A stretch of DNA of 64,000 nt from Streptomyces celluloflavus. Its GTDB lineage: Bacteria > Actinomycetota > Actinomycetes > Streptomycetales > Streptomycetaceae. Of the stretch, positions 14,880-59,505 are shown in pieces (the stretch's first letter is position 1; each line of letters begins with the position of its first letter). The notes under the pieces were generated by a model. It did not search any database. It saw only the letters and a program-made list of their open reading frames with translations, and was not told where the DNA came from. The position numbers and the translations under genes were made by a program. The DNA is taken from positions 124,001 to 188,000 of the forward strand of contig JOEL01000004.1 of NCBI GenBank assembly GCA_000720995.1, written 5' to 3'.

Positions 14880-14902
14880 ACGGTAGGGGCGACCACTGAC
14901 AA
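14880..14902 (-). promoter_or_regulatory. RecA-NDp (PafBC-type) DNA-damage promoter of the MFS gene
   Basis: On the minus strand this reads TTGTCAGTG, 8 bases, TACCGT, an exact match to the RecA-independent DNA-damage promoter consensus. The predicted transcript starts near 14873, giving a short leader with a good ribosome binding site before ATG 14846. Confidence 0.85.
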
Positions 14903-15003
14903 CGGGCCTCGGGCACCTTCCCCATCCGCTGCCTCAGATGCGCCCCGGCAGCGTGCCCGGTACGGCGCTTGGGGCGGTCCGGGGCGACCGCGCCATCATG
15001 CGA

Positions 15004-15047
15004 AACGGCCCGGCCGGAGGGGGTGAGTCCCCTCCGGCCGGGCCGTT
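15004..15047. terminator. Strong hairpin terminator after the RbpA-like gene
   Basis: A perfect 19-bp stem (15004-15022 with 15029-15047) with a 6-base loop lies just downstream of the minus-strand gene ending at 15067. It also isolates the MFS promoter at 14880-14902. Confidence 0.85.
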
Positions 15048-15066
15048 CGCCAGGTCCGCCGATCCG

Positions 15067-15402
15067 TCAGATCTCGCCGCGGAGCTTCGCGAGCGCCTCC
15101 GCGAGAATCGCCTCGCCGTCGGCGTCGCTGCGGCGCTCCCGGACGTACGCGAGGTGGGTCTTGTACGGCTCGGTGCGCGGCGGGTCCGGCGGGCTGTCCC
15201 GGTCCTTGCCTGCCGGGAAACCACAGCGCGGGCAGTCCCAGGTGTCCGGAACCTGCGCGTCGCCGGCGAAGCTGGGCTGCGTCTCGTGCCCGTTGGAGCA
15301 CCAGAAGGAGATGCGGGTGCGCGGCGCGGACTCGCCGCGCTCGGCCTCCCCCATCGGCCCCGCCCCGACCCGACTTCCTCGGATCGCGTTGCCACTTGCC
15401 AC
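15067..15402 (-). CDS. RNA polymerase-binding protein, RbpA family (RbpB-like paralogue)
   Basis: A 111-residue actinobacterial protein of the family that binds RNA polymerase and the principal sigma factor and stabilises initiation. The zinc-binding core is visible as SFWCSNGHE and WDCPRCGFPAG, followed by the helical sigma-interaction region KTHLAYVRERRSDADGEAILAEALAKLR. Its sequence and place next to secG match, from memory, the second Streptomyces paralogue rather than the better-studied RbpA. GTG 15402 is used because AGGGAG lies 8 bases upstream; longer starts are not supported. TAGACT at 15471-15476 may be its -10 box. Confidence 0.88.
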   Translation of the reverse strand: MASGNAIRGSRVGAGPMGEAERGESAPRTRISFWCSNGHETQPSFAGDAQVPDTWDCPRCGFPAGKDRDSPPDPPRTEPYKTHLAYVRERRSDADGEAILAEALAKLRGEI

Positions 15403-15559
15403 GGTCGTAACTCCCTGCGTAATGGTGCTGCAAAGCATCTAACAGCAGCTGCGTTGCGGGCGCTCCAGTCTACGTAAGGCCCAACGCGCGTCCAGAGACA
15501 GGAGTTACCCTCCGGCCGAGGACGCCGCCCTCATGATAAGCCGCGTCCCCGACGGCATG

Positions 15560-15796
15560 TCAGCTGCCGAGCTTCATCAGGACGCCGAGGACGACGATGC
15601 ACGCGAACCACAGGAGACCGATCACGATGGTGATGCGGTCGAGGTTCCGCTCGGCGACCGAGGAGCCGCCGACCGAGGACTGCATGCCGCCACCGAACAT
15701 GTCGGACAGGCCGCCGCCCTTCCCCTTGTGCATGAGCACCAGCATCATCAGCAGCAGGCTGAAGACGATGAGGGCGATCGAGAACCCGATGACCAC
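15560..15796 (-). CDS. secG: Preprotein translocase subunit SecG
   Basis: The 78-residue protein is the small auxiliary subunit of the SecYEG channel. Two hydrophobic helices (residues 1-23 and about 56-74) flank a glycine-rich cytoplasmic loop (KGKGGGLSDMFGGG). The start is a GTG at 15796. It follows tpiA on the same strand, with two hairpins in between. Confidence 0.95.
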   Translation of the reverse strand: MVIGFSIALIVFSLLLMMLVLMHKGKGGGLSDMFGGGMQSSVGGSSVAERNLDRITIVIGLLWFACIVVLGVLMKLGS

Positions 15797-15835
15797 GGCT
15801 TGACCAACTCTCTAGGACTGACGGACGAAACTGTT

Positions 15836-15860
15836 GTGCCGGCGCCCGGGGCGCCGGCAC
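15836..15860 (-). terminator. Hairpin between tpiA and secG
   Basis: A perfect 11-bp stem (15836-15846 with 15850-15860) with a 3-base loop. A second GC-rich inverted repeat lies at about 15877-15913. Together they should end most transcripts from gap-pgk-tpiA before secG, or attenuate them. Confidence 0.65.
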
Positions 15861-15949
15861 GACACCGAAAGGGTGCGGGGCCGGGCGGCGACTGCACGCC
15901 GGACCCGGCCCCGACAGGGTACGACGGGCCGGGCCCGTCGTCATAGCCG

Positions 15950-16726
15950 CTACTGGTCGCGGAAGCGGACGATCTTGACGAACTCGTCCGCGTTCAGCGC
16001 CGCGCCGCCGATCAGCGCGCCGTCGACATCCGGCTGCGCCATGATCGCGGCGACATTGCCGGACTTGACCGAGCCGCCGTACTGGATGCGGACCTTGTCG
16101 GCCAGCTCCTGGCTGTAGAGCTCGGCGAGGCGGCCGCGGATCGCCCCGCAGACCTCCTGCGCGTCCTCGGGCGTGGCGACCTCGCCGGTGCCGATGGCCC
16201 AGACCGGCTCGTAGGCGATCACGATGGACTCGGCCTGCTCGGCCGGGACGCCGTCCAGGGCGCCGTCGACCTGCGCGAGGGTGTGCGCGACCTGGTTGCC
16301 GGCCTTGCGGACGTCCAGGCCCTCGCCGACGCAGAGGATCGGGGTGAGACCGTGCTGGTAGGCGGCCTTGACCTTGGCGTTGCAGATCTCTTCGTTCTCG
16401 CCGTGGTACTGGCGGCGCTCGCTGTGGCCGACGGCCACGTAGGTGCACTTGAGCTTGGCGAGCATCGGGCCGGAGATCTCACCGGTGTAGGCACCGGACT
16501 CGTGCGCCGAGATGTCCTGGGCGCCGTACTTGATCTTGAGCTTGTCGCCGTCGACCAGCGTCTGCACCGAGCGCAGGTCGGTGAAGGGCGGCAGGACCGC
16601 GACCTCTACGGCCTCGAAGTCCTTGTCGGCGAGCGCGAAGGCGAGCTTCTGGACGTGGGCGATGGCCTCGAGGTGGTTGAGGTTCATCTTCCAGTTGCCC
16701 GCCATCAGCGGGGTGCGGGATGTCAC
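15950..16726 (-). CDS. tpiA: Triosephosphate isomerase
   Basis: The 258-residue TIM-barrel enzyme interconverts dihydroxyacetone phosphate and glyceraldehyde 3-phosphate. Catalytic motifs are GNWKMN (lysine), VGHSERR (histidine) and [11 protein letters not shown] (glutamate). The start is GTG 16726, only 6 bases after the pgk stop, so translation is coupled. It belongs with pgk and gap in a glycolytic run on the minus strand. Confidence 0.97.
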
Positions 16727-16732
16727 GGTTCT

Positions 16733-17935
16733 TCAGTCCTCCAGAGCGGCGAGGCCGGGGAGCGTCTTGCCTTCGAGGTATTCGAGGCTGGCGCCGCCAC
16801 CGGTCGAAATGTGGCCGAAAGCATTCTCGTCGAAGCCGAGCGCGCGCACGGCCGCGGCCGAGTCACCGCCGCCGACGACGGTGAATCCGGGGCTGTCGAG
16901 CAGCGCCTGCGCGACGGCTGCGGTGCCGCCCGCGTAGTCGGGGTGCTCGGCGACACCGACCGGACCGTTCCAGAACACCGTCCCGGCGTCCGCGATCTTC
17001 GACGCGAACAGCTCACGGGTCTTCGGGCCGATGTCCAGCCCCTCCATGTCGGCGGGGATCTTGTCGGCGTCGACGGTGACGAAGTCGGCGGGGGCCTTGG
17101 TCTTCAGGTCCGGGAAGTCGCGCGAGGCCAGGATGTCCACGGGGAGGACCAGCTCGACGCCGCTCTTCTCCGCGCGCTCCAGGTACTCGGTGACGGCCGG
17201 GATCTGGTCCTTCTGCAACAGCGAGATACCGACCTCGTAGCCCTTGGCCTTGAGGAAGGTGTACGCCATACCGCCGCCGATCAGCAGCCGGTCGGCCTTG
17301 CCGAGCAGCTCGTCGATGACGGCGAGCTTGTCGGAGACCTTGGCGCCGCCGAGGACGACGACATAGGGGCGCTTGACGTCCTCGGTGAGGCGCTTCAGCA
17401 CGCCGACCTCGGTGGCGATCAGGTCGCCGGCGGCGTGCGGGAGGCGCGCCGGGAGATCGTAGACGGAGGCGTGCTTGCGGTGCACGGCGCCGAAGCCGTC
17501 GCCCACGTACAGGTCCGCGAGCTCGGCGAGCCGGTCGGCGAAGGCGCCGCGCTCCGTGTCGTCCTTGCTGGTCTCGCCGGCGTTGAAGCGGAGGTTCTCC
17601 ACGACGGCCACCTGGCCGTCGCGCAGGTCCGCGACCACGGAACGGGCGGAGTCGCCGACCGTGTCGGTCGCGAAGGCCACGTCCTGGCCGAGGATTTCGC
17701 CCAGCCGCGCGGCAGCGGGGGCGAGCGAGAAGGCCGGGTCCGGGGCGCCCTTGGGACGGCCCAGGTGGGAGGCGACGATCACCTTGGCGCCGCGCGCGGC
17801 GAGCTTGGCGATCGTCGGCGCGACGGCGCGGATCCGGCCGTCGTCGGTGATGGTCGTACCGTCCAGCGGCACGTTCAGGTCGGCGCGGACGAAGACCCGC
17901 TTGCCCGCTACCTGGAGGTCATCGATCGTCTTCAT
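16733..17935 (-). CDS. pgk: Phosphoglycerate kinase
   Basis: This 400-residue enzyme transfers phosphate from 1,3-bisphosphoglycerate to ADP. N-domain motifs RVFVRADLNVPLDG and ASHLGRPKG bind the triose; the C-domain has PYVVVLGGAKVSDK and the nucleotide-binding FWNGPVGV and VVGGGDSAAAV. GGAG lies 9 bases before the ATG. gap lies upstream behind a hairpin, and tpiA follows directly. Confidence 0.97.
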   Translation of the reverse strand: MKTIDDLQVAGKRVFVRADLNVPLDGTTITDDGRIRAVAPTIAKLAARGAKVIVASHLGRPKGAPDPAFSLAPAAARLGEILGQDVAFATDTVGDSARSVVADLRDGQVAVVENLRFNAGETSKDDTERGAFADRLAELADLYVGDGFGAVHRKHASVYDLPARLPHAAGDLIATEVGVLKRLTEDVKRPYVVVLGGAKVSDKLAVIDELLGKADRLLIGGGMAYTFLKAKGYEVGISLLQKDQIPAVTEYLERAEKSGVELVLPVDILASRDFPDLKTKAPADFVTVDADKIPADMEGLDIGPKTRELFASKIADAGTVFWNGPVGVAEHPDYAGGTAAVAQALLDSPGFTVVGGGDSAAAVRALGFDENAFGHISTGGGASLEYLEGKTLPGLAALED

Positions 17936-17969
17936 GAGAAGTGACTCCGTTGCGTAGGTCGGTCATGGG

Positions 17970-18011
17970 ACGGGGCTCGTACGACGCTTGCGCGCGCCGT
18001 ACGAGCCCCGT
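17970..18011 (-). terminator. Hairpin between gap and pgk
   Basis: A perfect 14-bp inverted repeat (17970-17983 with 17998-18011) with a 14-base loop lies between gap and pgk. It may end gap transcripts or set the ratio of gap to pgk-tpiA mRNA. Confidence 0.7.
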
Positions 18012-18072
18012 CCTCATTTCGCTGTGCCCTGCCCTGCGGCAAAGGGGGTGTCCCCAGCGCCGGCGGGCGAGA

Positions 18073-19203
<1,131 letters not shown>

Positions 19204-19234
19204 TCACCGAGCGCCCCCAGCCCATGACGCACCG

Positions 19235-19266
19235 CGCCCCCGGCATCACCTTGGAGACCGGGGGCG
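19235..19266 (-). terminator. Terminator after whiA
   Basis: A perfect 9-bp stem (19235-19243 with 19258-19266) lies 29 bases downstream of the whiA stop on the minus strand. Confidence 0.55.
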
Positions 19267-19294
19267 AGCGGGGTGGACGAGGTGTCCGGGCCGG

Positions 19295-21336: not shown

Positions 21337-22283
21337 TCGCGCCCCATGTCCCGGTGGACGATGACGGTCTCCACGCCTTCGGAGACCAGCCTGCGGGCCA
21401 GCTTCTCGGACATCGCGACGCTGCGGTGCTTACCGCCCGTACAGCCGACCGCGATGGTCACATAGCGCTTGCCCTCGCGGCGGTAGCCCTCGGCGACGAG
21501 GCGGAGCAGTTCGGCGTAGCCGTCCAGGAACTCCTTGGAGCCGGGCTGGTTGAAGACGTAGTCGGAGACCTCTTCGTTGAGGCCGGTGAACGGGCGCAGC
21601 TCCGGGACCCAGTGCGGGTTGGGGATGAAGCGGCAGTCGATGACCATGTCGGCGTCGACCGGGAGGCCGTATTTGAAGCCGAAGGACATGACCGTGGCGC
21701 GCAGCTCGGGGACCTCCTCGCCGGCGAACTGGGCGTCCATCTTGGCGCGCAGCTCGTGGACGTTGAGGCTGGAGGTGTCGATGACGAGGTCGGCGTCGCC
21801 GCGCAGCTCGCGCAGCAGATCGCGCTCGGCGGCGATGCCGTCGACGATCCGGCCGTCGCCCTGGAGGGGGTGCGGGCGGCGCACCGACTCGAAGCGGCGC
21901 ACCAGGGCCTCGTCGGAGGACTCCAGGAAGACGATGCGGCGCTTGACGTTCTGTGCGTCGAGGGTGGCGAGCGACGCCTTGAGGTTGTCGAAGAAGCGGC
22001 GGCCGCGGACGTCGACGACGACGGCGATCCGCGCGACATTGCCCTGCGAACGGGCGCCCAGCTCGACCATCGGCGGGATCAGCTCGGGCGGGATGTTGTC
22101 GACGACGAACCAGCCGAGGTCCTCCAGGCACTTCGCGGCCGTGCTCCGGCCGGCGCCCGACATACCGGAGATGATCACCAGCTCGGGGATCGCGGCGCTC
22201 TCGCCCTGATCGGACTCGCGCATCGTGCCCGTACTCACCTGTGCACCGTCTCTCTCGGTTTCCTGCGTTCCGTGCGTGTTCAT
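21333..22283 (-). CDS. rapZ: RapZ-family nucleotide-binding protein
   Basis: The 316-residue P-loop protein is homologous to E. coli RapZ, the adapter for RNase E cleavage of GlmZ. No such sRNA is known in Streptomyces, so its role here is open. The Walker A-like loop reads GMSGAGRST, with arginine in place of the usual lysine. The C-terminal domain has [22 protein letters not shown]. The first 32 residues are a variable extension. ATG 22283 overlaps the uvrC stop as ATGA. Confidence 0.93.
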
Positions 22284-24355
22284 CTGTCCTGCCCCCGTTC
22301 TGCCGACAACGCGGCCGGTGGGGCCTCGTCATCCTCAATGATCTCTCCTGTGGCGGTGTTCACCGCGGGGCCGGCCGGTGCCGCCGCGGCCAGCGCCGCC
22401 GCGACGGTCTCGGCGGTCTTGCGGCCGACGCCCGGGACCTCGCAGATCTCGTCGATCGTCGCGGCCCGCAGCCTCTTCAGCGAACCGAAGTGTTTGAGCA
22501 GTGCCTGGCGGCGGCTGTCGCCGAGACCGGCGACGGCGTCGAGCGGCGACGCCTTCAGCCGCTTGGCGCGCTTGGTGCGCTGGTAGGTGATGGCGAAGCG
22601 GTGCGCTTCGTCGCGGACGCGCTGGAGAAGGTAGAGGCCCTCGCTGCTGCGCGGCAGCACGACCGGGTCGTCGTCCTCGGGCAGCCAGACCTCTTCGAGC
22701 CGCTTGGCCAGACCGCAGACGGCGACATCGTCGATGCCGAGCTCGTCCAGGGCCCGGCGGGCGGCGGCGACCTGGGGGGCGCCGCCGTCGACGACGACGA
22801 GCTGCGGCGGATAGGCGAAGCGCTTGGGGCGGCCCTCCTCGTCCACGGGGCGGCCGGCCATGGGGTCCGGTTCCAGGTCCGCGGCGGCGTCCGGCGGGCC
22901 GCCGGCGTCCGGGGCGGCACCGGCGGACGGCTCCTCGGTCCACTCGCCGGACTTCTGCTTCTCCTGGAGGTAGCGCTTGAAGCGGCGGCCGATGACCTCG
23001 TGCATGGACCGGACGTCGTCCTGGCCGGCGAAGCTCTTGATCTGGAAGCGGCGGTACTCGCTCTTGCGGGCGAGGCCGTCCTCGAAGACCACCATCGAGG
23101 CGACCACGTCATCGCCCTGGAGGTGGGAGATGTCGAAGCACTCGATGCGCAGCGGGACCGAGTCCAGACCGAGGGCCTGGGCGATCTCCTCCAGGGCGCG
23201 GGAGCGGGTGGTCAGGTCGGAGGCGCGCTTGGTCTTGTGCAGGGCCAGTGCCTGCTGGGCGTTGCGCTGGACCGTGGCCATCAGGTCCTTCTTGTCGCCG
23301 CGCTGCGGGATGCGCAGCGAGACCTGGGAGCCGCGGCGGCCGGAGAGCCACTGCTGGATCGGCTCGACATGCTCGGGGAGCGCCGGGACCAGGACTTCCT
23401 TGGGGACGGCATCGCCCTTCTCCTCGCCGTACAGCTGTTGGAGGGCGTGTTCGACGAGGCCGGCGGTGCTGACGGCCTCCACCTTGTCGGTGACCCAGCC
23501 GCGCTGGCCGCGGACCCGGCCGCCGCGGACGTGGAAGATCTGGACGGCGGCTTCGAGTTCGTCCTCGGCGACCGCGATCAGATCGGCGTCGGTGGCGTCG
23601 GCGAGCACCACGGCGCTCTTCTCCATCGCCCGCTTGAGCGCCACTATGTCGTCGCGCAGCCGGGCGGCGCGCTCGTACTCCATCTCCTCGGCGGCCTCCT
23701 GCATCCGGCGCTCCAGGCGGCGGAGGTAGGCGCCGGTGCGGCCAGCCATGAAGTCGCAGAACTCCTCGGCGAGTTCGCGGTGCTCCTGGGCGGAGATCCG
23801 CTCGACACAGGGGGCCGAGCACTTGCCGATGTAGCCGAGCAGGCAGGGGCGGCCGATCTGGGCGGAGCGCTTGAAGACTCCGGCGGAGCAGGTGCGCACC
23901 GGGAAGACGCGCAGCATCAGGTCGACGGTCTCCCGGATGGCCCAGGCGTGGCCGTACGGGCCGAAGTAGCGCACGCCCTTCTTCTTGGCGCCGCGCATGA
24001 CCTGGACGCGGGGGAACTCCTCGTTGAGGGTCACCGCGAGATAGGGATAGCTCTTGTCGTCGCGGTACTTGACGTTGAATCGGGGGTCGAACTCCTTGAT
24101 CCAGCTGTATTCGAGCTGGAGCGCCTCGACCTCGGTGGAGACGACGGTCCACTCCACGGAGGCGGCGGTGGTGACCATCGTGCGGGTACGCGGGTGGAGG
24201 CCGGCCAGGTCCTGGAAGTAGCTGGCCAGGCGCTGGCGCAGGCTCTTGGCCTTGCCGACGTAGATGACCCGGCCGTGCTCGTCGCGGAATTTATAGACCC
24301 CCGGCGAGTCGGGGATCTGTCCCGGCTTGGGTCGGTAGCTGCTGGGGTCTGCCAT
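22280..24355 (-). CDS. uvrC: Excinuclease ABC subunit C
   Basis: The 691-residue nuclease makes both incisions in nucleotide excision repair. Regions in order: GIY-YIG-like nuclease ([20 protein letters not shown]), cysteine-rich stretch ([15 protein letters not shown]), UVR motif around [13 protein letters not shown], the RNase H-like endonuclease with [10 protein letters not shown] and VVDGG, an Ala/Pro-rich insert near residues 505-540, and helix-hairpin-helix motifs ([12 protein letters not shown]). ATG 24355 is chosen because a RecA-NDp promoter lies 7 bases upstream; a longer frame to 24385 would run through it. It heads the uvrC-rapZ-yvcK-whiA operon. Confidence 0.97.
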
Positions 24356-24362
24356 GCCCACC

Positions 24363-24385
24363 ACCCTACTGACCGCCACCGACAA
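24363..24385 (-). promoter_or_regulatory. RecA-NDp (PafBC-type) DNA-damage promoter of the uvrC-whiA operon
   Basis: The minus strand reads TTGTCGGTG, 8 bases, TAGGGT. The -10 box ends 7 bases before ATG 24355, so the transcript should be leaderless. Confidence 0.88.
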
Positions 24386-29335: not shown

Positions 29336-32308
29336 TCAGGGGGTCCGGCGGGCCCGCGTCGTCGCCTTCTTGGCGGCCGGCTTCTTCGCCGCGGCCTTCT
29401 TGGCCACCGGCTTCTTCGCCGCCGCGGCCTTCTTCGCCGGCTTCCCCGTCGTCGCGGCATCGCTGACGCGGTCGCCGAGGATCTCCCGCAGGAACTTGCC
29501 GGTGTGGCTGGCCGGGACCGCCGCGACGCCCTCCGGGGTGCCTTCGGCGACGATCATTCCGCCGCCGTTGCCGCCCTCCGGGCCCATGTCGATGACCCAG
29601 TCGGCGGTCTTGATCACATCGAGGTTGTGCTCGATGACGATCACCGTGTTGCCCTTGTCGACCAGGCCGGAGAGCACCCTGATGAGCTTGCTGATGTCGT
29701 CGAAGTGCAGACCGGTGGTCGGCTCGTCCAGGACATAGACCGTGCTGCCCGTCGAACGCTTCTGGAGCTCGCTCGCCAGCTTGACGCGCTGCGCCTCGCC
29801 GCCCGAGAGGGTCGGCGCGGACTGCCCGAGCCGGACGTACCCGAGGCCGACCTCGTGGAGCGTCTTGAGATGGCGGGCGATGGTCGGCACCGCCTCGAAG
29901 AAGCCCAGCGCCTCCTCGATGGGCATGTCCAGCACCTCGGCGATGGACTTGCCCTTGTAGTGCACCTCCAGCGTCTCGCGGTTGTAGCGCGCACCGTGGC
30001 AGACCTCGCACGGTACGTACACATCCGGCAGGAAGTTCATCTCGATCTTGATCGTGCCGTCGCCGGTGCAGTTCTCGCAGCGGCCGCCCTTGACGTTGAA
30101 GGAGAAGCGCCCCGGCAGATAGCCGCGGACCTTGGCCTCCATCGTCTCCGCGAACAGCTTGCGGACGTGGTCGAAGACGCCGGTGTACGTGGCCGGGTTG
30201 GAGCGGGGGGTACGGCCGATGGGCGACTGATCGACATGGACGACCTTGTCCACCAGGTCGTCGCCCGCCACCCGGGTGTGCCGGCCCGGCACCGACTTGG
30301 CGCCGTTCAGCTCGCGCGCCAGGTGGGTGTAGAGGATGTCGTTGACCAGCGTCGACTTACCGGAGCCGGAGACGCCGGTGACGGCGGAGAGGACCCCGAG
30401 CGGGAAGGAGACGTCGATGTCGCGGAGGTTGTTCTCCTTCGCGCCGTGGACGGTCAGCTGCCGGGCGGGGTCGGCGGGACGGCGGATCTCCGGCGTCGGG
30501 ATGGCCTTCTTCCCGGACAGATACTGGCCGGTGATCGACTCCTTGTTGGCCAGCAGCTGCTTCATCGGACCGCTGTGCACGACCTTGCCGCCGTGCTCGC
30601 CCGCACCGGGGCCGATGTCCACGACCCAGTCGGCGACCTTGATGGTGTCCTCGTCGTGCTCCACGACGATCAGGGTGTTGCCCATGTCGCGCAGCCGTAC
30701 CAGCGTCTCGATCAGCCGGTGGTTGTCGCGCTGGTGCAGGCCGATGGACGGCTCGTCCAGGACGTAGAGCACGCCGACCAGACCGGAGCCGATCTGGGTG
30801 GCGAGGCGGATGCGCTGTGCCTCACCGCCGGAGAGGGTGCCCGCGGCGCGGTTCAGCGAGAGGTAGTCCAGGCCGACGTCGACCAGGAACTTCAGCCGTT
30901 CGTTGACCTCCTTGAGGACCCGCTCGGCGATCTTCTTCTCCCGGGCGTCGAGCTTCATCCCGCGCAGGAAGTCGGCGCAGTCGCTGATCGACATGGCCGC
31001 GACGTCGGCGATCGACTTCTGCTGCACCGTGACGGCGAGCACGACCGGCTTGAGCCGCGTCCCCGCACAGGTCGGGCAGGGCACCTCGCGCATATAGCCC
31101 TCGAAGCGCTCCCGGCTGCTGTCGCTCTCCGCCTCGCTGTGCCGCCGCTTGATGAACGGCAGGGCGCCCTCGAAGGGGGTGGTGTACGCGCGCTCGCGGC
31201 CGTACCGGTTGCGGTAGCGGACCTCGATCTGGGTCTTGTGGCCGTGCAGCAGGGCCTTCTTGGCGCGCTGCGGCAGCCCGGCCCACGGGATGTCCGTCCG
31301 GAAACCGAGGGCGTCCGCCAGCGCGCCCACCAGACGGCCGAAGTACTCCTTGGTGTGGCCGTGCGACCAGGGGTGGATCGCGCCCTCGTCGAGGGACCTG
31401 TCCTCGTCGGGGACGATCAGCTCGGGGTCGACCTCCATGCGGGTGCCGATGCCGGTGCAGTCCGGGCAGGCGCCGAAGGGCGAGTTGAAGGAGAAGGAGC
31501 GGGGCTCCAGCTCCTCGAAGGACAGGTCGTCGTAGGCGCAGTAGAGATGCTCGGAGTACATCCGCTCGCGCTGCGGGTCGTCCGCTTCCAGGTCGACGAA
31601 GTCGAGGATGACCATGCCGCCGGAGAGTCCGAGGGCGGTCTCGACGGAGTCGGTCAGCCGCCGCTTGGCGCTGTCCTTGACCGTGAGGCGGTCGACGACC
31701 ACCTCGATGGTGTGCTTCTCCTGCTTCTTGAGCTTCGGCGGCTCGGAGAGCTGGATCGTCTCCCCGTCGACCCGCGCCCGGCTGTAGCCCTTGGTCTGGA
31801 GGTCGGCGAAGAGATCAACGAACTCGCCCTTGCGCTCGCGCACCAGCGGGGAGAGCACCTGGAAGCGGCTGCCCTCGGGCAGTTCGAGCACCTTGTCGAC
31901 GATGGCCTGCGGCGACTGCCGGGCGATCGGCCGGCCGCACTCGGGGCAGTGCGGTTTACCGATCCGCGCGAAGAGCAGGCGGAGGTAGTCGTAGACCTCG
32001 GTGATCGTGCCGACCGTCGAGCGCGGGTTGCGCGAGGTCGACTTCTGATCGATCGAGACCGCGGGGGACAAGCCCTCGATGAAGTCCACATCGGGCTTGT
32101 CCATCTGCCCGAGGAACTGCCGGGCGTAGGAGGAGAGCGACTCGACATAGCGCCGCTGCCCCTCGGCGAAGATCGTGTCGAAGGCGAGCGAGGACTTGCC
32201 CGACCCGGAGAGCCCCGTGAAGACGATGAGGGAGTCGCGGGGGAGGTCGAGCGAGACGTTTCGGAGATTGTGCTCGCGAGCGCCACGAACGATGAGACGG
32301 TCGGCCAC
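29336..32308 (-). CDS. uvrA: Excinuclease ABC subunit A
   Basis: The 990-residue damage-recognition ATPase of nucleotide excision repair. Two ABC modules are visible: Walker [14 protein letters not shown] near residue 30 and [13 protein letters not shown] in the second half, each with LSGGEAQR. Zinc sites include CPECGRP and the CENC/CEVC pair. The last 35 residues are a lysine/alanine-rich tail ([18 protein letters not shown]), common in actinobacterial UvrA. GTG 32308 is chosen because [14 protein letters not shown] is the conserved start. The upstream region has a LexA-like site but no RecA-NDp element. Confidence 0.97.
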
Positions 32309-32810
32309 GCCGGTCGGCACCTTTCTGGAGAGGGGCGGGAGCCGCGGCTCTGCTTCCGCGGCCCGGTGGAACGAGCAGATGCGGCGGAGCGGAGCGGAGC
32401 CCCCCACCCAGGGTAGGGGGAACTGCCACGGCGCTGTCTGAGTGATGCCACACACGAGCCTATAGCACGCGCATTCGATTTACGGTGCTCGCGAGCCCGC
32501 TTCACCCAAACGTGTGGCAGCGCCGCCGTCCCACGCCGGCCGGCCTCGCGCACGTGCTCCAAGACGCCCCCGGATGCCCTCGCACCGGCCGGGCGCCGCC
32601 GCCCGGACTCACCGGCGACAGCGACCCGCGCGGGCGGACCGCGAGGCACGACGGCCGGGGCGGATATCCGGCGCCGGCCACCCACCCCGACCCGACATTC
32701 GGGACCATCTCCTCCATAGCCCCCCGTCCGCCCCTCCCGTCACACCCGCGTACGCCCCGGATCCGTGCGGCCGACTCCCGAAGCCGGCGGCGCGGCGCTA
32801 GCGTCTGGGC
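32309..32810. promoter_or_regulatory. Divergent region between uvrA and the maleylpyruvate-isomerase-like gene
   Basis: About 500 bases without a gene. It contains a LexA-like site at 32463-32478, a G/C-run hairpin-like stretch at about 32400-32420, and a leaderless -10 (TAGCGT, 32799-32804) for the rightward gene. Confidence 0.55.
32463..32478. promoter_or_regulatory. Possible degenerate LexA (SOS) box upstream of uvrA
   Basis: The plus strand reads TAGCAC, 4 bases, ATTCGA. This matches 9 of 12 positions of the actinobacterial SOS palindrome TCGAAC-N4-GTTCGA. It lies 155 bases before uvrA. A chance match in GC-rich sequence cannot be excluded. Confidence 0.35.
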
Positions 32811-39565: not shown

Positions 39566-41698
39566 TCAGCTGACCCCGGCCTCCCGCATCTGCCGCAACT
39601 CCTTCTTCAGCTCGCCCACTTCGTCACGGAGCCGGGCGGCGACCTCGAACTGCAACTCGGCGGCGGCGGCCCGCATCCGCTCGGTCATCTCCTCGATGAG
39701 CTCGGCCAGTTCGGCGGCGGGGCGGTCCGTCAGGGCCACGGCGCCCTTGCCCGCCCGGCCCTTCGCGGCCTTCCCGCCGAGCGCGGGGACCGGCGCCTTG
39801 CCCTGGGCGTCCTTGGCGCCGGACGTCTTGCGGTATCCCGAACCCAGCAGCTCCTGGGTGTCGATCTCCTCGCGGGCGATCGTCGCGACGATGTCGCCGA
39901 TCTTCTTGCGGAGCGGCTGCGGGTCGATGCCGTTCTCCTTGTTGTACGCGAGCTGCTTCTCCCGGCGGCGGTTGGTCTCGTCGATGGCCCGCTCCATCGC
40001 CGGGGTGATCTTGTCGGCGTACATGTGCACCTGTCCGGAGACGTTGCGCGCCGCGCGTCCGATCGTCTGGATCAGGGCCGAACCGGACCGCAGGAAGCCC
40101 TCCTTGTCGGCGTCCAGGATGGCCACCAGGGAGACCTCGGGGAGGTCGAGTCCCTCCCGCAGCAGGTTGATGCCGACCAGGACGTCGTACTCGCCGGCCC
40201 GCAGTTCGCGCAGCAGCTCCACGCGCCGCAGGGTGTCCACATCGCTGTGCAGATAGCGGACCTGGATGCCGAGCTCCAGGAAGTAGTCCGTGAGATCCTC
40301 GGCCATCTTCTTGGTGAGGGTGGTGACCAGGACACGCTCGTTCTTGTCCGTGCGGGTGCGGATCTCGTGCACCAGGTCGTCGATCTGTCCGTCGGTGGGC
40401 TTGACGACCACCTCGGGGTCGACCAGGCCGGTCGGGCGGATGATCTGCTCCACGAAGCCGTCGCCGCGCGCGAGCTCGTACTTGCCCGGGGTCGCCGACA
40501 GGTAGACGGTCTGGCCGATGCGCTCCAGGAACTCCTCCCACTTCAGCGGCCGGTTGTCCATGGCGGACGGCAGCCGGAAGCCGTGCTCGACCAGGGTGCG
40601 CTTGCGGGAGGCGTCGCCCTCGTACATGGCGCCGATCTGCGGGACCGTGACATGCGACTCGTCGATGACCAGGAGGAAGTCGTCCGGGAAGTAGTCGATG
40701 AGGGTGTTGGGCGCGGAGCCGGGCTCACGGCCGTCCATGTGCATCGAGTAGTTCTCGATGCCGGAGCAGGAGCCGATCTGCCGCATCATCTCGATGTCGT
40801 ACGTGGTGCGCATGCGCAGCCGCTGGGCCTCCAGGTGCTTGCCCTGCTTCTCCATCGTGGCGAGGCTGTCCGCCAGCTCGGCCTCGATGCCGGCGATGGC
40901 CTTCTCCATGCGCTCCGGGCCCGCGATGTAGTGGCTGGCCGGGAAGATGTAGAGCTCCCGGTCGTCGCTGATGACCTCGCCGGTGAGCGGGTGGAGCGTG
41001 GACAGCGCCTCGACCTCGTCGCCGAACATCTCGATCCGGACGGCCAGCTCTTCATAGACCGGGAAGATCTCGATGGTGTCGCCGCGCACCCGGAAGGTGC
41101 CCCGGGTGAACGCCACGTCGTTGCGGGTGTACTGGATGTCGACGAAGCGGCGCAGCAGCTGGTCCCGGTCGATCTCGTCGCCGACCTTCAGCGGCACCAT
41201 GCGGTCGACGTACTCCTGCGGCGTGCCCAGGCCGTAGATGCAGGACACCGACGCGACCACGATGACATCACGCCGGGTGAGCAGCGAGTTCGTCGCGGAG
41301 TGGCGCAGCCGCTCGACCTCCTCGTTGATCGAGGAGTCCTTCTCGATGTACGTATCGGACTGCGGGACGTACGCCTCGGGCTGGTAGTAGTCGTAGTAGG
41401 AGACGAAGTATTCGACGGCGTTGTTGGGCAGCAGCTCACGGAATTCGTTGGCGAGCTGGGCCGCGAGGGTCTTGTTGGGCGCCATGACGAGCGTCGGGCG
41501 CTGCAGCTTCTCGATCATCCACGCGGTGGTCGCCGACTTGCCGGTGCCGGTCGCGCCCAGCAGGACGACATCCTTCTCACCGCCGCGGATGCGCCGTTCC
41601 AGCTCGGCGATGGCCGCCGGCTGGTCGCCATTGGGCTGATAGGGGCTGACGACCTCGAAGGGCGCCACCGTGCGTTCGATCTTTGATACGGGCCGCAT
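39566..41698 (-). CDS. uvrB: Excinuclease ABC subunit B
   Basis: The 710-residue damage-verification helicase of nucleotide excision repair. Walker A GATGTGKS is near residue 47, the beta-hairpin region [21 protein letters not shown] follows, and helicase motifs [10 protein letters not shown] and QTIGRAARN are clear. The C-terminal UVR domain ([19 protein letters not shown]) binds UvrC. ATG 41698 is chosen because a RecA-NDp promoter ends 6 bases upstream, implying a leaderless mRNA; the open frame continuing to 41944 crosses this promoter. Confidence 0.97.
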
Positions 41699-41704: not shown

Positions 41705-41727
41705 ACCGTACGACCCGGCACTGACAA
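41705..41727 (-). promoter_or_regulatory. RecA-NDp (PafBC-type) DNA-damage promoter of uvrB
   Basis: The minus strand reads TTGTCAGTG, 8 bases, TACGGT. The -10 ends 6 bases before ATG 41698. Confidence 0.88.
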
Positions 41728-43203: not shown

Positions 43204-43226
43204 TTGTCAGTGGGGCGTCCTAGGCT
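43204..43226 (+). promoter_or_regulatory. RecA-NDp (PafBC-type) DNA-damage promoter of ogt
   Basis: The plus strand reads TTGTCAGTG, 8 bases, TAGGCT. The -10 ends 6 bases before GTG 43233. Confidence 0.9.
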
Positions 43227-43232: not shown

Positions 43233-43838
43233 GTGACGAATTCAGAGCGGGTTGCGCATACGGAGCGGCTGCCGGAGGGGGCGGGCGGGCCGGACACCGC
43301 GCTGGATGCCGGGCGCGACTGGGGCCGGCGGCTGCTGGACACCCCCATCGGCCCCCTGCTGCTCGCCGCGACCCAGGAGGGTCTGGTCCAGGTCGTCTTC
43401 CACGCCGACGGACCGACGGCCCGCCGCGCATCGGCCCGTCTGGAGCACGCCTTCGGTGCCCCGCCGCTCCCGGAGATACCGCATCTGGCGACGGCGGCGG
43501 CCGAACTCACCGCCTATTTCTCCGGCGAGCTGCGGGTCTTCACCGTCCCCCTGGACTGGACCCTCTCCACCGGTTTCCACGCCCGGGTCCTGCACGCACT
43601 CGCCGACGGCGTCCCCTACGGCAGCGTCGTCGGCTATCAGGATCTCGCCGACCGGGTCGGGGAGCCCGGTGCCGCCCGCGCGGTGGGCGCGGCGATGGGC
43701 TCCAATCCGCTTCCGGTCGTCGTCCCCTGCCATCGTGTGGTGGCGAGCGACGGCGGTATCGGCGGTTTCGGCGGCGGTCTGGAGACCAAGCGGCTGCTGC
43801 TGGCCCTGGAGGGCGTCCTCCCCGCGCCCCTGTTCTGA
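43233..43838 (+). CDS. ogt: Methylated-DNA-protein-cysteine methyltransferase
   Basis: The 201-residue suicide repair protein removes alkyl groups from O6-alkylguanine. The acceptor cysteine is C166 in VVVPCHRVV, followed by GGIGGFGGGLETKRLLLALEG; the helix-turn-helix segment lies in VPYGSVVGYQDLADRVG. Length fits the Ogt class with an N-terminal RNase H-like domain. GTG 43233 has no ribosome binding site but lies 6 bases after the -10 of a RecA-NDp promoter, so the mRNA should be leaderless and damage-inducible. Confidence 0.95.
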   Translation: MTNSERVAHTERLPEGAGGPDTALDAGRDWGRRLLDTPIGPLLLAATQEGLVQVVFHADGPTARRASARLEHAFGAPPLPEIPHLATAAAELTAYFSGELRVFTVPLDWTLSTGFHARVLHALADGVPYGSVVGYQDLADRVGEPGAARAVGAAMGSNPLPVVVPCHRVVASDGGIGGFGGGLETKRLLLALEGVLPAPLF

Positions 43839-44503: not shown

Positions 44504-44526
44504 TTGTCAGTGGTCGGCCGTACGGT
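44504..44526 (+). promoter_or_regulatory. RecA-NDp (PafBC-type) DNA-damage promoter of the WGR gene
   Basis: The plus strand reads TTGTCAGTG, 8 bases, TACGGT. ATG 44576 lies 49 bases after the -10, with a strong ribosome binding site (GGGGAGGGGA, 44561-44570). Confidence 0.88.
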
Positions 44527-49803: not shown

Positions 49804-50076
49804 ATGGGGAAATCGGACACCGGTATACGGGCCTGCGCGCCGGCCTGCCGGGACCTGCAACGGGCGCTGCCGCTGCTGCCGGCGCACCTGCGCATCCTGC
49901 GGGCCGCGTCCGCTTCCCTGCCGGCCACGTGGACGGCCTCGCTCACGGCCGCTACCGGCGCTGTCCTCGCCGCCGCGCGCCGCCGGCCCATTCCCTATGC
50001 GGCACTGCCCTCTCCGGACGTGACGCACACCCGCCCGGAAACCGGGCGCCCCTGCCGGGAATGGCACTGTCCGTGA
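49804..50076 (+). CDS. Small unknown protein coupled to a flavoprotein monooxygenase
   Basis: A 90-residue protein I do not recognise. It has five cysteines, two near the N-terminus (RACAPACRD) and two near the end (CREWHC), and an alanine-rich amphipathic middle. Support for it as a real gene: GAGGGGGAG lies about 6 bases before ATG 49804, third codon positions are mostly G/C, and its stop overlaps the next start as GTGA at 50073-50076. The cysteines could bind a metal, but nothing proves this. Confidence 0.72.
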   Translation: MGKSDTGIRACAPACRDLQRALPLLPAHLRILRAASASLPATWTASLTAATGAVLAAARRRPIPYAALPSPDVTHTRPETGRPCREWHCP

Positions 50077-51893: not shown

Positions 51894-51930
51894 CCCGCCC
51901 GCACCGCGGGCCGGTCCGCGGCCCACAGTC

Positions 51931-51962
51931 CGCGAGCCCCCTTCACGGGGAGGGGGCTCGCG
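51931..51962 (+). terminator. Terminator after the flavoprotein gene
   Basis: A perfect 12-bp stem (51931-51942 with 51951-51962) with an 8-base loop lies 38 bases after the stop codon. Confidence 0.75.
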
Positions 51963-54745: not shown

Positions 54746-56289
54746 CGCGCGAGCAGGGTGGTGAGGGCGCCCACGGGATCGGGGTCCGCCGGCCCGGTGG
54801 GCCACCAGTCCTCGGCGCCGGGCTCGGATTCGTACGGGTACCAGCGGTTGTCGTGGCCGAAACGGAGCTGGATGCCGCCGCGGGGGTGTGTGAGGTGGTT
54901 GTGGTGCGGGCGCAGGGCCGGGAGGTCCGCGGCGAGGAGGGCGCTGCGGGCGCGGTCGAAGTCACCGGCCGGGGGGTTCCACGGGGTGTGGAGGAGGGAG
55001 AGCCCCTCGGCGCCGCCCTGGCGCCAGGCGGCGACGGAGCGGGCCACGTCGGTAGGGGTACGGCCGGTGGCCGCCGCCAGGTCACGGTAGAGCGCCCGGG
55101 TGGTGGAGGTCAGGCCCGCGGTGGGGTGGGCGGTGGCCGCCAGGCGGATGGCGTCCTCCCACGGGGGCAACGCCGGGTACGGGCCGGGGACGGCGGGCCC
55201 TCCCGGACCGCGGGGACCTGCGGCGGATACGCAGGCGTGGGCGCGGGCCGCGGCGTCGGCGGCCAGGAATTCGAGGACGGCCGGATCGAAGGGCAGGCCG
55301 TCGGCGTCCGGGAGGGCCGGCGGACGGCCGGGGTGCGGTGGCACCGGCAGGGGCGGCGGGAGCGGCGGCCGGGGGCGGTCGCCGAGGGCCTCGCGGGCGA
55401 GGACGCCGCGGGGTGCGGGGCTTCCCGGGGATCCCGTTCCGGCAGCGGTGCGGGTCTCTCGGACCGGGCCGGGGTCGCCGGAAACGGTGGGTGCGGTGGC
55501 GGCGTCGGCGGCTCCGGGGACGGTTCTGCCGCCGGGCGGCACGGGGGCCGCGAGGGGGTGTGCGCGGGTTTCGCGTGCGGTGTGGCCGGCGTTGCGGCGG
55601 GAGAGTTCGTCGAGGAGTTCGCGCTCGCCACGGCCGCGCATCAGCAGCAGGACGAAGGGGTCGGCGTCCAGGAGGCGGGCCACCTGGAAGCAGAGCGCGG
55701 CGGCGTGCTTGCAGGGCCGGCCGTGGTCCGGACACGAACAGCGGGGCACGAGGTCACCCGGCCCCGGCAGGAGGCGCGCCTCCTCCTCGGCCAGTGCCCG
55801 GGGCAGCTTCTTGGCCAGGAGGGCGGCGAGTTGGGCGGGCTCGGCGGTGATCGCATCGAGGAGGCCGGACCACTCCTCGTCGGTGAGGGTTCCGATGCGG
55901 ATTTCGGCGCTGTAGGGGCGGGGCCTGCTGCCGCGTACGGTGGCGACGATGCGGCCCGGTGTGACGTTGATGGTGTCCACATGGCCGTCGCGGGCGTACG
56001 TCCGGCCGCGGGCGAGCCGGGCGCTGTCGAGAGCGGTGGTCTCCAGCGCGTCCAGCCATGCGCTCCCCCACCAGGATTCGGCGGACAGACCTCCGGTACC
56101 GGTACGGGCCGGCAGCGGCGGGAACGTACGCGAACGGTCAGCGCGGACCAGCCGGTCCGCCGCGGCGGCGCGCCCGGAGGTGGCGGGCCGGCCCCGGAAG
56201 CCCGCGCCCGTGGTTCCGCCGATGGCCGCGGCCCGGCCCGCGCCGGAGCCGTGGGAGCCGGAACCGCCGACTGCGGAACGGGGGTTCAC
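54742..56289 (-). CDS. SWIM zinc-finger protein
   Basis: A 515-residue protein. Its centre carries the SWIM zinc site CSC-x5-CKH as RCSCPDHGRPCKHAAALCF (residues about 198-216), a DNA- or protein-binding fold often encoded beside SNF2 helicases. SWWGSAWLDALE, typical of this partner family, lies near residue 75. The rest is Pro/Ala-rich with a conserved C-terminal segment (PWNPPAGDFDRARSALLAADLPALRPHHNHL). GTG 56289 overlaps the SNF2 stop as GTGA, with AGGAGG 5-6 bases upstream. Confidence 0.9.
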   Translation of the reverse strand: MNPRSAVGGSGSHGSGAGRAAAIGGTTGAGFRGRPATSGRAAAADRLVRADRSRTFPPLPARTGTGGLSAESWWGSAWLDALETTALDSARLARGRTYARDGHVDTINVTPGRIVATVRGSRPRPYSAEIRIGTLTDEEWSGLLDAITAEPAQLAALLAKKLPRALAEEEARLLPGPGDLVPRCSCPDHGRPCKHAAALCFQVARLLDADPFVLLLMRGRGERELLDELSRRNAGHTARETRAHPLAAPVPPGGRTVPGAADAATAPTVSGDPGPVRETRTAAGTGSPGSPAPRGVLAREALGDRPRPPLPPPLPVPPHPGRPPALPDADGLPFDPAVLEFLAADAAARAHACVSAAGPRGPGGPAVPGPYPALPPWEDAIRLAATAHPTAGLTSTTRALYRDLAAATGRTPTDVARSVAAWRQGGAEGLSLLHTPWNPPAGDFDRARSALLAADLPALRPHHNHLTHPRGGIQLRFGHDNRWYPYESEPGAEDWWPTGPADPDPVGALTTLLAR

Positions 56290-59288
56290 CCGGGCCTCCT
56301 CAGGGAGACGAGGTCGGCCAGCTCGGCGTCGGACAGTTCGGTGAGCGCGGCCTCGCCACCGGAGAGCACCGCATCGGCGAGGGCCCTTTTGGCGGTGAGG
56401 AGTTGGGCGATGTTGTCCTCGACAGTGCCCTCGGCGATCAGGCGGTGGACCTGGACGGGCTGGGTCTGGCCGATGCGGTAGGCGCGGTCGGTGGCCTGCT
56501 CCTCCACCGCCGGGTTCCACCAGCGGTCGTAGTGGATCACGTGTCCCGCGCGGGTGAGGTTGAGGCCCGTACCGGCCGCTTTCAGGGACAGCAGGAAGAC
56601 GGGGGTGTGACCGGACTGGAAGCGATCGACCATCTGTTCCCGCTGGGCGACGGGGGTACCGCCGTGCAGGAACTGGTGCGCGATGCCATGGGTGTCGAGG
56701 TGCCGTTCGAGCAGCCGCGCCATGCCGACGTACTGGGTGAAGACCAATGTCGCGCCGCCCTCGGCGAGGATGGTGCCGAGGAGTTCGTCGAGGAGTTCGA
56801 GCTTTCCCGAACGGGCGGCCAGACCGGGCGCGGCCTCCTTGAGGTACTGCGCGGGGTGGTTGCAGATCTGTTTGAGCGCGGTGAGCAGCTTCATCACCAG
56901 GCCGCGGCGCGCGATGCCCTCGGCGGCCTCGATCCGGGAGAGCGCCTCGCGGACGACGGCCTGGTAGAGCGCGGCCTGTTCGCGGCCCAGCGCCACCGGG
57001 TGGTCCGTCTCGGTCTTGGGCGGGAGTTCGGGCGCGATTCCGGGATCGGACTTCTTGCGGCGCAGGATGAACGGGCGCACCAGCCGGGCCAGCCGCCGCG
57101 CCGCCTCCGGGTCCTCGCCGCCTTCGACCTCACGGGCGTGCAGCGCGCGGAACGTCTTGAGGGGGCCGAGCAGCCCAGGGGTGGTCCAGTCGAGGAGGGC
57201 CCACAGCTCGGAGAGGTTGTTCTCGACGGGGGTGCCGGTGAGGGCGATCCGGGCCGGAGCCTTGATGCCACGCAGCGCCTTGGCCGTGGAGGAGCGCGGG
57301 TTCTTGACGTGCTGGGCCTCGTCGGCGACGACCCATCCCCAGGAGTGGGCGGCCAGTTGGGCAGCGCTGCTGCGCATCGTCCCGTAGGTGGTGAGGACGA
57401 AACCGCCGGTCAGCCCGTCGAGGCTGCGGCCGGTGCCGTGGAAGCGACGTACGGGCGTGCCGGGGGCGAAGCGCTCGATCTCGCGCTGCCAGTTGCCGAG
57501 GAGGGAGGCGGGGCAGACGACGAGGACGGGTGCGGTGGGCCGCCGGTGGAGGTGGAGGGCGATGACGGTGATGGTCTTGCCGAGGCCCATGTCGTCGGCG
57601 AGGCAGCCGCCGAGGCCGGTCGAGGTCATGGTGTCGAGCCAGGCCATACCGCGCAGTTGGTAGTCGCGCAGGGTCGCCCGCAGCCCGGGTGGCTGGGGCA
57701 GGGGGTGCGCGTCGGCGGTGAGGCGGCTGCGCAGCGCGGCGAGCGCGCCCAGGGGCACCACCTCGACCTCTTCGCCGTCCACGTCCGTCGTGCCGCGGAG
57801 CGTCGCGGCGAGCGCGTCGACCGGGTCCAGGTAGCCCAGTTCCCGTTTGCGGGCCTTGCGTACGAGCGCGGCGTCGACCAGGACCCATTGGTCGCGCAGC
57901 CGGACAATCGGGCGGTGGGCCTCGGCGAGGGTGTCCATTTCCGCCTCGCTGAGCGGCGCGCCGTCCAGCGCCAGCCGCCAGCGGAATTGCAGCAGTTCAT
58001 CGGTGTCGAAGAAGCCGAAGCCGTCCGCGGCCGAGCCCGGAGCCGGGCGCAGCACGGCCGCGGCGGTCAGCCCGCGGGCCAGCTCTTTGGGCCAGTGGAC
58101 GGTCACTCCGGCGGCGCCCAGTCGCGGCGTGGCCTCGCCCAGCAGTTCGTACAGCTCGTCCTCGCCGAGTGGCAGTACGTCGGGGACCGGCCGCTCCAGG
58201 AAGCGGGTGAGCGGAGGCCAGACGCGGGCCGCGCGCCGCAGTGCCAGGAGGGTGTCGACGCGGGAGCGAGGGCCGAAGTGGTCGGGGCCGTCGCCCTCCC
58301 ACAGGTCGCGGGCGTCGGCGACCAGGGTCGGGTCGGTGAGGCTGTGGACCTGGAGGACGACGGCCGCCGCCCCGCGCTCTTCGGCACCGCCACCGTCGCG
58401 CCCGCCGACAGCGGCGGCGTCCGGGCCACCGGCACCTTCCGCACCGCCGCCCGCGTCGGTCTCGGCGTCCTGCCGCCCGGTGTCGAAGAGGCGGTGCGGA
58501 GCCAGGTCCAGGCGCAGGGAGAGCCGCACTCCGGCGTCGGCACCGGCCGCGACCTCCGCGGCCCATTCCCGGGCACCCGGGAGCTGCTGCGGCGCACTCG
58601 CGGCGAACGGGGCGCCGGCCACGAGGGCGGCGGCGGGGGTGCGCGGCAGGGTGTCGGCGACGGCGTCCACGAAGAGCCGTACCAGAGCTGCGGGGTCGGG
58701 CAGCTGGAGCGGCCGGCTGCCGGGGAGCGGCACGGCGTACGCCTCGGCGGGCATGGCGGCGGCGATGGCCCGCAGATGCGCGATGTCGTCGGGGTCCAGC
58801 GGGCCGGCCCGCCAGGCGTCGGTGTCCTCGGCGGTCAGCCCCGGCAGCATTTTTCCGCGCGCGGCGAGGTGGAGGGCGTGCAGGGTGGCCGCGCCCCAGC
58901 AGGCGGCGGCCGGGTGGGCGGCCGGATCGTGGCGGGCGCGGACCAGCAGCGGAACGGCGTCGACGACCGGGAGCAGTACGGCGGGGACGGTGCGGCTGCG
59001 CGCGCCGTTTCCGTGGCGGCGGGCGACCGTCAGCTGTGCCGGCCCGGCCACTCCGTCCGCGCCCTGCGCCGCCCCTTCCCCGGCCCCTATGTCCGGGAGC
59101 GGGCCGCCATCGGGCCGCCAGAGGGCGAGGTGTCCGGCGCGCGGTGGCCGGGCGGGCAGAAAGACCACGGCACACCGGGCCACGGCGGCAGCGAGGCCGC
59201 CGGTGTCCCCGCTCGCCCCGGAACCGGCCGTCAGAGCGGCATCCGACGGCCCACCGGTCTCTGCCGCCGCTTCCCACCGCCTCGCCAT
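56286..59288 (-). CDS. SNF2-family DEAD/DEAH helicase with an SNF2-associated (DUF3670-like) domain
   Basis: A protein of about 1000 residues. The SNF2-associated domain (LPLGEDELYELLGEATPRLG to VLVDAALVRKARKRELGYL) precedes the motor: Walker A DDMGLGKTITV, DEAQH as motif II, TGTPVENNLSELW, and in the second lobe TLVFTQYVGMARLL and DRAYRIGQTQPVQVHR. Such motors translocate on duplex DNA. Start choice is uncertain: ATG 59288 opens the typical-looking sequence, whereas GTG 59405 has a strong GGGGGAGG 5 bases upstream and would add 39 residues. A RecA-NDp-like element lies at 59483-59505. It is first in the operon with the SWIM and XPB-like genes. Confidence 0.9.
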   Translation of the reverse strand: MARRWEAAAETGGPSDAALTAGSGASGDTGGLAAAVARCAVVFLPARPPRAGHLALWRPDGGPLPDIGAGEGAAQGADGVAGPAQLTVARRHGNGARSRTVPAVLLPVVDAVPLLVRARHDPAAHPAAACWGAATLHALHLAARGKMLPGLTAEDTDAWRAGPLDPDDIAHLRAIAAAMPAEAYAVPLPGSRPLQLPDPAALVRLFVDAVADTLPRTPAAALVAGAPFAASAPQQLPGAREWAAEVAAGADAGVRLSLRLDLAPHRLFDTGRQDAETDAGGGAEGAGGPDAAAVGGRDGGGAEERGAAAVVLQVHSLTDPTLVADARDLWEGDGPDHFGPRSRVDTLLALRRAARVWPPLTRFLERPVPDVLPLGEDELYELLGEATPRLGAAGVTVHWPKELARGLTAAAVLRPAPGSAADGFGFFDTDELLQFRWRLALDGAPLSEAEMDTLAEAHRPIVRLRDQWVLVDAALVRKARKRELGYLDPVDALAATLRGTTDVDGEEVEVVPLGALAALRSRLTADAHPLPQPPGLRATLRDYQLRGMAWLDTMTSTGLGGCLADDMGLGKTITVIALHLHRRPTAPVLVVCPASLLGNWQREIERFAPGTPVRRFHGTGRSLDGLTGGFVLTTYGTMRSSAAQLAAHSWGWVVADEAQHVKNPRSSTAKALRGIKAPARIALTGTPVENNLSELWALLDWTTPGLLGPLKTFRALHAREVEGGEDPEAARRLARLVRPFILRRKKSDPGIAPELPPKTETDHPVALGREQAALYQAVVREALSRIEAAEGIARRGLVMKLLTALKQICNHPAQYLKEAAPGLAARSGKLELLDELLGTILAEGGATLVFTQYVGMARLLERHLDTHGIAHQFLHGGTPVAQREQMVDRFQSGHTPVFLLSLKAAGTGLNLTRAGHVIHYDRWWNPAVEEQATDRAYRIGQTQPVQVHRLIAEGTVEDNIAQLLTAKRALADAVLSGGEAALTELSDAELADLVSLRRPG

Positions 59289-59482
59289 ACCGTCCCTGCC
59301 GTCCCCTCGTGCCTGTTCGCCCGATGCCGGTCGCGGCCACGGCCGGGCCTGCCGTGCCCGGCTCACCCTCGCGGCCCCGACCTGCGAGTCTACGGTCGTA
59401 CGCACTGCCCCTCCCCCGCGTCTGCTGCTCACCGGCGTCGGTCCCGCCGCGCCGTGCGTGATGTCGATGGAACGTGATGTCG

Positions 59483-59505
59483 ATGGAAGCAGACGGCACT
59501 GACAA
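59483..59505 (-). promoter_or_regulatory. RecA-NDp-like element, with a degenerate -10, before the SNF2 operon
   Basis: The minus strand reads TTGTCAGTG, 8 bases, TTCCAT. The activator half-site is perfect; the -10 hexamer keeps only the first and last T of TAnnnT. It lies 78 bases before GTG 59405. Confidence 0.5.

Follow-up and report, generated by a model that had tools for sequence, protein, structure and literature searches.

Does a short element repeated along a 64,000-nucleotide stretch of Streptomyces celluloflavus DNA (hereafter the window) mark promoters that respond to DNA damage independently of RecA, and which activator and which genes would be involved? A preliminary description, drawn from the sequence alone, had listed five exact copies of the pattern TTGTC[A/G]GTG-N8-TAnnnT, all with one 23-bp geometry, plus a sixth and less perfect copy, and had assigned them to the RecA-independent DNA-damage promoters (RecA-NDp) activated by PafBC in mycobacteria. 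Our scan of the window returned exactly these five matches at the coordinates given there, while 100 dinucleotide shuffles of the window contained none. The 9-mer half-site TTGTC[A/G]GTG by itself is present in seven copies, compared with a shuffle mean of 0.37 and a largest shuffle count of 3. We consider it probable, at roughly 0.85, that the five exact sites are RecA-NDp promoters read by the housekeeping RNA polymerase together with the WYL-domain activator PafBC. In such promoters TTGTC[A/G]GTG would serve as the -26 element and TAnnnT as the -10 element, and DNA damage would induce uvrC, uvrB, ogt, an MFS exporter gene and the gene of a WGR-domain beta-propeller protein (Table 1).

The genome scan proposed in the preliminary description was run with the exact pattern. 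The 8.68-Mb genome holds 33 exact sites, whereas the reversed pattern has no match, and a scan of spacers from 3 to 13 bp placed 33 sites at N8 and a single one at N10, the nine other lengths being empty (reversed control, 1). One-mismatch sites number 82, against 7 for the reversed control at up to one mismatch. Position 6 of the element is A in 27 of the 33 exact sites. According to our own simple codon-usage gene caller, all 33 lie outside called genes, and for 26 a called gene start follows within 160 nucleotides (nt); other first genes behind exact sites include recA, ruvC, dnaX and those of a uracil-DNA glycosylase, an AlkZ-like glycosylase and a UvrD/nuclease protein. Independent evidence on the TAnnnT box is provided by the start codons. 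An ATG or GTG sits 6 or 7 nt past the box at 16 of the 33 sites, where 1.6 would be expected from the mean of 0.82 start codons per offset at offsets of 15-99 nt (binomial probability, 7e-13). Because this is the spacing of leaderless mRNAs, the TAnnnT box is very probably the true -10, and many transcripts from exact sites, uvrB and uvrC included, are probably leaderless. Within the window, uvrC, uvrB and ogt would be transcribed in this manner (7, 6 and 6 nt from box to start codon), unlike the MFS and WGR genes, whose start codons lie 33 and 49 nt past the box and whose mRNAs have leaders.

That these matches arose by chance or from base composition is scarcely credible. For the set as a whole this explanation is ruled out by the empty shuffles, by the 33 sites against none in the reversed control and by the 33 sites at N8 against one elsewhere, and it also sits badly with the start-codon phasing and with the conservation of the WGR promoter described below. 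The only observation in its favor is the seventh half-site, which had been omitted from the preliminary description and is probably a chance match within uvrC; single sites among the 33 could likewise be chance.

Table 1. Coordinates of predicted promoters, genes and related features in the window.
Feature	Position	Strand	Remarks
MFS-gene promoter, predicted RecA-NDp/PafBC type	14880..14902	-	Exact match; TTGTCAGTG-GTCGCCCC-TACCGT
MFS transporter, 419 amino acids	13587..14846	-	Pfam MFS_1, E-value 2.6e-24; MFS_3, E-value 7.8e-21
uvrC promoter, predicted RecA-NDp/PafBC type	24363..24385	-	Exact match; TTGTCGGTG-GCGGTCAG-TAGGGT
uvrC (presumed from sequence and neighborhood)	22280..24355	-	Open reading frame; ATG 7 nt past -10; mRNA probably leaderless
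Seventh half-site, probably chance	23484..23492	+	Antisense within uvrC
uvrB promoter, predicted RecA-NDp/PafBC type	41705..41727	-	Exact match; TTGTCAGTG-CCGGGTCG-TACGGT
uvrB (presumed from sequence)	39566..41698	-	Open reading frame; ATG 6 nt past -10; mRNA probably leaderless
ogt promoter, predicted RecA-NDp/PafBC type	43204..43226	+	Exact match; TTGTCAGTG-GGGCGTCC-TAGGCT
ogt, O6-methylguanine DNA methyltransferase	43233..43838	+	Pfam PF01035, E-value 1.1e-29; GTG 6 nt past -10
WGR-gene promoter, predicted RecA-NDp/PafBC type	44504..44526	+	Exact match; TTGTCAGTG-GTCGGCCG-TACGGT
WGR-domain/beta-propeller protein, 475 amino acids	44576..46003	+	Pfam WGR, E-value 3.6e-17
Activator-half look-alike in a conserved block, not a RecA-NDp promoter	59483..59505	-	TTGTCAGTG-CCGTCTGC-TTCCAT; one mismatch, at TA
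Probable -10 of the SNF2 operon	59387..59392	-	TAGACT; the five closest relatives have TAGACT or TAAACT at the aligned position
SNF2-family helicase, start uncertain	56286..59051	-	Pfam; first gene of a run with SWIM-finger and Helicase_C_3 proteins

The density of sites, on which the preliminary description had rested its case, is real but carries less weight than was placed upon it. A 29.6-kb span containing 5 of the 33 genome sites is reached in 0.025% of uniform draws (contig ends ignored), yet the sites occur genome-wide and the cluster is largely a matter of uvrB, uvrC, ogt and the WGR gene being neighbors here. Among the 68 WGR loci of relatives with a full 10-kb upstream flank, only 24 also contain uvrB, and because uvrB is nearby in so few of them the site can be said to travel with the WGR gene itself.

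Conservation of the element at orthologous promoters was followed for several of the genes. For WGR, the best 80 of 142 relatives were compared over a stretch beginning 250 nt upstream of the match and ending 30 nt within it. The site is exact at 67 loci and has one mismatch at the remaining 13, with 12 of these 13 mismatches at the first T, as against 47 of 4,000 randomly placed stretches of these loci with at most one mismatch (true sites included). The core columns are conserved against 30-nt flanks of 0.37-0.57 pairwise identity, a figure that for the core is partly by construction as the alignment rows were picked for at most one mismatch. The closest relatives of the protein are at most 92% identical and nearly all from Streptomyces. 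Its AlphaFold model has a propeller core of middling confidence (mean predicted local distance difference test score, 70.9), and Foldseek placed natural as well as designed propellers among the 50 matches listed, which is uninformative on function. The locus sets for MFS, SNF2, ogt and JetA comprise the best 30 by score, drawn from the 37 genomes with a match for MFS and from about 100 for SNF2, ogt and JetA, and lean to closer relatives. The MFS gene is found in 37 of 101 genus genomes, and its promoter is exact at 27 loci, has one mismatch at 2 and lacks the element at 1 (own locus included); the MFS protein itself matched eight NCBIfam families, drug exporters included, in each case below the family cut-off. 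The uvrB promoters of relatives (n=33) are divided into 22 exact, 10 one-mismatch and 1 two-mismatch sites. A TGTC[AG]-anchored element precedes ogt at 27 of 30 loci (25 GTG, 1 GTA, 1 GAC), and a wider set of 52 ogt loci with enough upstream DNA for scoring, which may include paralogues, has 28 exact, 10 one-mismatch and 14 worse sites; two further loci were left aside for shortage of upstream sequence. The WGR protein and the MFS exporter, both put forward as new members in the preliminary description, are thus likely members of the damage regulon on the evidence of their promoters, the former as a strongly supported candidate (at most one mismatch at 80/80 loci) and the latter as a supported one where its gene exists (29/30).

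The proposed activator is encoded in the same genome. Genes pafB and pafC are located at L057 13717-15653, after a Pup-ligase gene (PF03136 matches) and near genes that we take to be pup and the proteasome subunit genes. Both products match the M. smegmatis PafBC of solved complexes (E-values 2.2e-59 and 3.2e-54), and Pfam recognizes WYL in both and HTH_PafC in PafC, although an NCBIfam search of the two yielded no family name. Residues R181, Y196, R204 and R208 occupy the same positions as in M. smegmatis, and the recognition-helix residues R46 and R50 are also kept. The accessible text of one report states that M. smegmatis mutants of the former four lose single-stranded DNA (ssDNA) binding, R204 and R208 having been tested together with R181 (PMC11804915); R46 and R50 are presumably equivalent to A. 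aurescens R44 and R48 (PMC6789036). Collectively, the fixed N8 spacer, the intergenic position, the start-codon phasing, the retention of the site at WGR and MFS (and at uvrB and ogt) and a pafBC pair with conserved residues are direct results of the computation and bear out the assignment of the element to the RecA-NDp/PafBC type. Damage induction, PafBC dependence and RecA independence of the five promoters are predicted on this basis.

The sixth site of the preliminary description behaves differently. It contains a perfect 9-mer, but its putative -10 reads TTCCAT instead of TAnnnT, and the A of TAnnnT is the most important base of a -10. The statement that all sites point at a gene start holds for the five exact sites and is loose for the sixth, from which the called SNF2 start is about 430 nt away. 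The block at 59483 differs by no more than one base among the own genome and five close relatives, and it always carries TTCCAT, never the TA of a -10. A probable -10 of the SNF2 operon is located about 90 nt further downstream. Given the missing TA, the separate conserved block and this likelier -10, we do not accept that 59483 serves SNF2 as a PafBC promoter in this species, and the inclusion of the SNF2 operon in the regulon by way of this site is not supported here. Viewed on its own, the block at 59480-59505 is 23-25 nt long (TTGTCAGTGCYGTCTGCTTCCAT), is kept with its spacer in the same six genomes and has TGTGGATAAC upstream, which is presumably DnaA-box-like. Elsewhere in the genus, SNF2 operon promoters often read TTGTC[AG]G-(AC or TG)-N8-TAGACT or close to it; the 39 examined include 18 GAC forms, 8 GTG forms, 4 other anchored forms and 9 with none, six of these nine belonging to the own clade. 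A further site precedes the gene of a SWIM-finger protein, behind which a DUF5691 protein is encoded (L048/L059, C30:69878), and the SNF2 run of the window also includes a SWIM protein.

Forms TGTC[AG]GTG and TGTC[AG]GAC alternate at three orthologous promoters, namely those of SNF2, jetA and, once, ogt. At jetA, 29 of 30 loci have a TGTC[AG]-anchored element (15 GTG, 9 GAC, 3 GTC, 1 GTA and 1 GTT) and 1 has none. In the own genome, 5 of the 6 matches to TTGTCRGAC (R, A or G) are at N8 while the reversed control gave 1, a distribution with a probability of 3e-5 under equal spacings, and the GAC form constitutes a GTC-N-GAC palindrome. A RecD2-type helicase gene (L236/L244, C50:44272 of the own genome) has a GAC-form site, TTGTCGGAC-N8-TACGGT, 6 nt in front of its ATG; a second such site is located within a called gene and upstream of a ligase-like one.

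The jet genes are represented in this genome as well, with an exact site 7 nt before the GTG of a three-gene SMC-like operon (L238 122-7521; C2:409621 onward). PADLOC matched two of its products to JetA3 (E-value 7.1e-186) and JetC3 (E-value 0), a likeness to Wadjet type III (JetABCD). The operon differs from that system in that the place of JetB is occupied by a gene lacking a PADLOC match, no JetD stands directly downstream (only the adjacent position was checked; jetC is followed by a gene on the opposite strand) and JetA relatives are near-universal, in 98 of 101 genus genomes. On these grounds we did not classify L238 as Wadjet type III. Two other exact sites share one 7-kb contig (L034, C98), each before a protein that matches nucleases of the PADLOC defence library; we take both proteins to be HNH-like. 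A tentative wider proposal, to which we would give somewhat less than even odds, is a genus-wide PafBC-type regulon with interchangeable TGTCRGTG and TGTCRGAC -26 forms, possibly read by two related WYL activators, that would arm repair genes along with an exporter, the WGR-propeller protein and a core JetA/JetC-like SMC operon and would make roughly half of its mRNAs without leaders.

Analysis of further genomes delimits the element taxonomically. All 150 genus genomes, the own included, contain sites (5-44 each, median 23), 3,739 in total against 14 for the reversed control, the control matches of this and the phylum scan being counted by eye. Nine other genomes of the same class hold 56 sites, 8 of the 9 having one or more, against a control of 0. 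The strong motif excess belongs to the class.

Several results weigh against the PafBC explanation. At seven of the 33 genome sites no gene start was called in the following 160 nt; five of these are followed within 80 nt by the beginning of an open frame of at least 127 amino acids, and such frames are common by chance at this G+C content. In other classes, 181 genomes have 41 sites between them, compared with 17 control matches, and a PafC-family match over the cut-off was obtained in 126 of 198 genomes, many outside the class. As many non-class genomes have PafC without much motif excess, motif and PafC do not simply co-occur: the phylum-wide test of their co-occurrence gave no discrimination, and the presence of PafC alone is no predictor of the motif, which counts against a simple one-to-one relationship. 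PF19187 has nine matches, mostly weak, in the own genome, and it also matches in four control genomes from outside the actinobacteria; WYL proteins other than PafBC could read the element. Lastly, a 2022 study reported from an initial search that the M. smegmatis PafBC motif lacks conservation in S. venezuelae (PMC9380542). For the genus at large, our results speak against such a lack.

The sites might then be genuine promoters of the same class that are read by another WYL activator, such as a PafBC paralogue or homodimer, with or without PafBC as a second reader. The nine PF19187 matches would supply candidates, the GTG/GAC alternation and the palindrome might suit a homodimer, and the GAC form independently favors N8. 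We nevertheless judge this unlikely. The key residues of PafBC are kept in the own genome, the GTG form is retained at 79 of 80 WGR and 29 of 30 MFS promoters, and PafBC is, to our knowledge, the only known reader of the motif.

Control of these genes mainly by LexA and RecA (SOS), with the motif as a constitutive promoter type lacking any damage role, appears more improbable still. None of the five sites has a GAACNNNNGTTC match (at most one mismatch) within 500 nt; the window holds 13 such matches, not above the shuffles (mean 15.2). At uvrA (29336-32455, between uvrC and uvrB) we found neither an element with up to two mismatches nor, nearby, the strict SOS-box pattern. The SOS explanation draws on S. 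venezuelae, where recA, ruvC and perhaps uvrA are LexA targets according to the accessible text (PMC9380542), but the S. coelicolor macrodomain hydrolase gene SCO6735, with a RecA-NDp promoter, is described as 5-fold induced by ultraviolet light (UV) (PMC5087735). PafBC-dependent activation of the five promoters remains the reading we prefer. The same S. venezuelae study left the existence of a RecA/LexA-independent damage response open on account of the seemingly non-conserved motif and described SOS induction in Streptomyces as slow, which makes a second damage pathway more interesting (PMC9380542). With the motif in 150 of 150 genus genomes and targets that keep it, a second damage response in Streptomyces is now testable.

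Comparison with earlier work shows that the novelty of the element in Streptomyces had been overstated in the preliminary description, RecA-NDp promoters having been described there between 2002 and 2016 (PMC2375139, PMC5087735). The UV-inducible promoter of S. rimosus recA reads TTGTCAGTGGC-N6-TAGggT (Ahel 2002, as quoted in PMC2375139), and the 2008 SIGffRid prediction for S. coelicolor covers 67 genes, ung and uvrB being those named in the accessible text (PMC2375139). These studies share with ours the element, the genus and the DNA-repair targets, but they predate PafBC and permit several spacings (PMC2375139); SCO6735 is alike in its promoter and differs in being a single gene (PMC5087735). 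The WGR, MFS or jetA genes may already stand in published Streptomyces tables. Literature searches pairing Streptomyces with PafBC, with RecA-NDp, with the motif or with WGR retrieved publications, partly accessible, among which we recognized no study testing PafBC in this genus.

Relative to the exact mycobacterial RecA-NDp consensus, A at position 6 is dominant here and the half-site also exists as a GAC form. The candidate targets also differ from those of Mycobacterium in including the MFS, WGR-propeller and JetA/JetC-like SMC genes. In the mycobacterial system, ssDNA binds the WYL domain of PafB and PafBC joins the polymerase at the promoter. There the -26 element is bound by the helix-turn-helix of PafB, and PafC touches sigma domain 4, the domain that would ordinarily contact the -35 (sigma adaptation) (PMC11804915). 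The promoters of M. smegmatis and M. tuberculosis resemble those described here in the order of a -26 element followed by a -10, in the location of pafBC near Pup-proteasome genes and in the shared targets recA, uvrA and uvrC (PMC8223512, PMC11804915).

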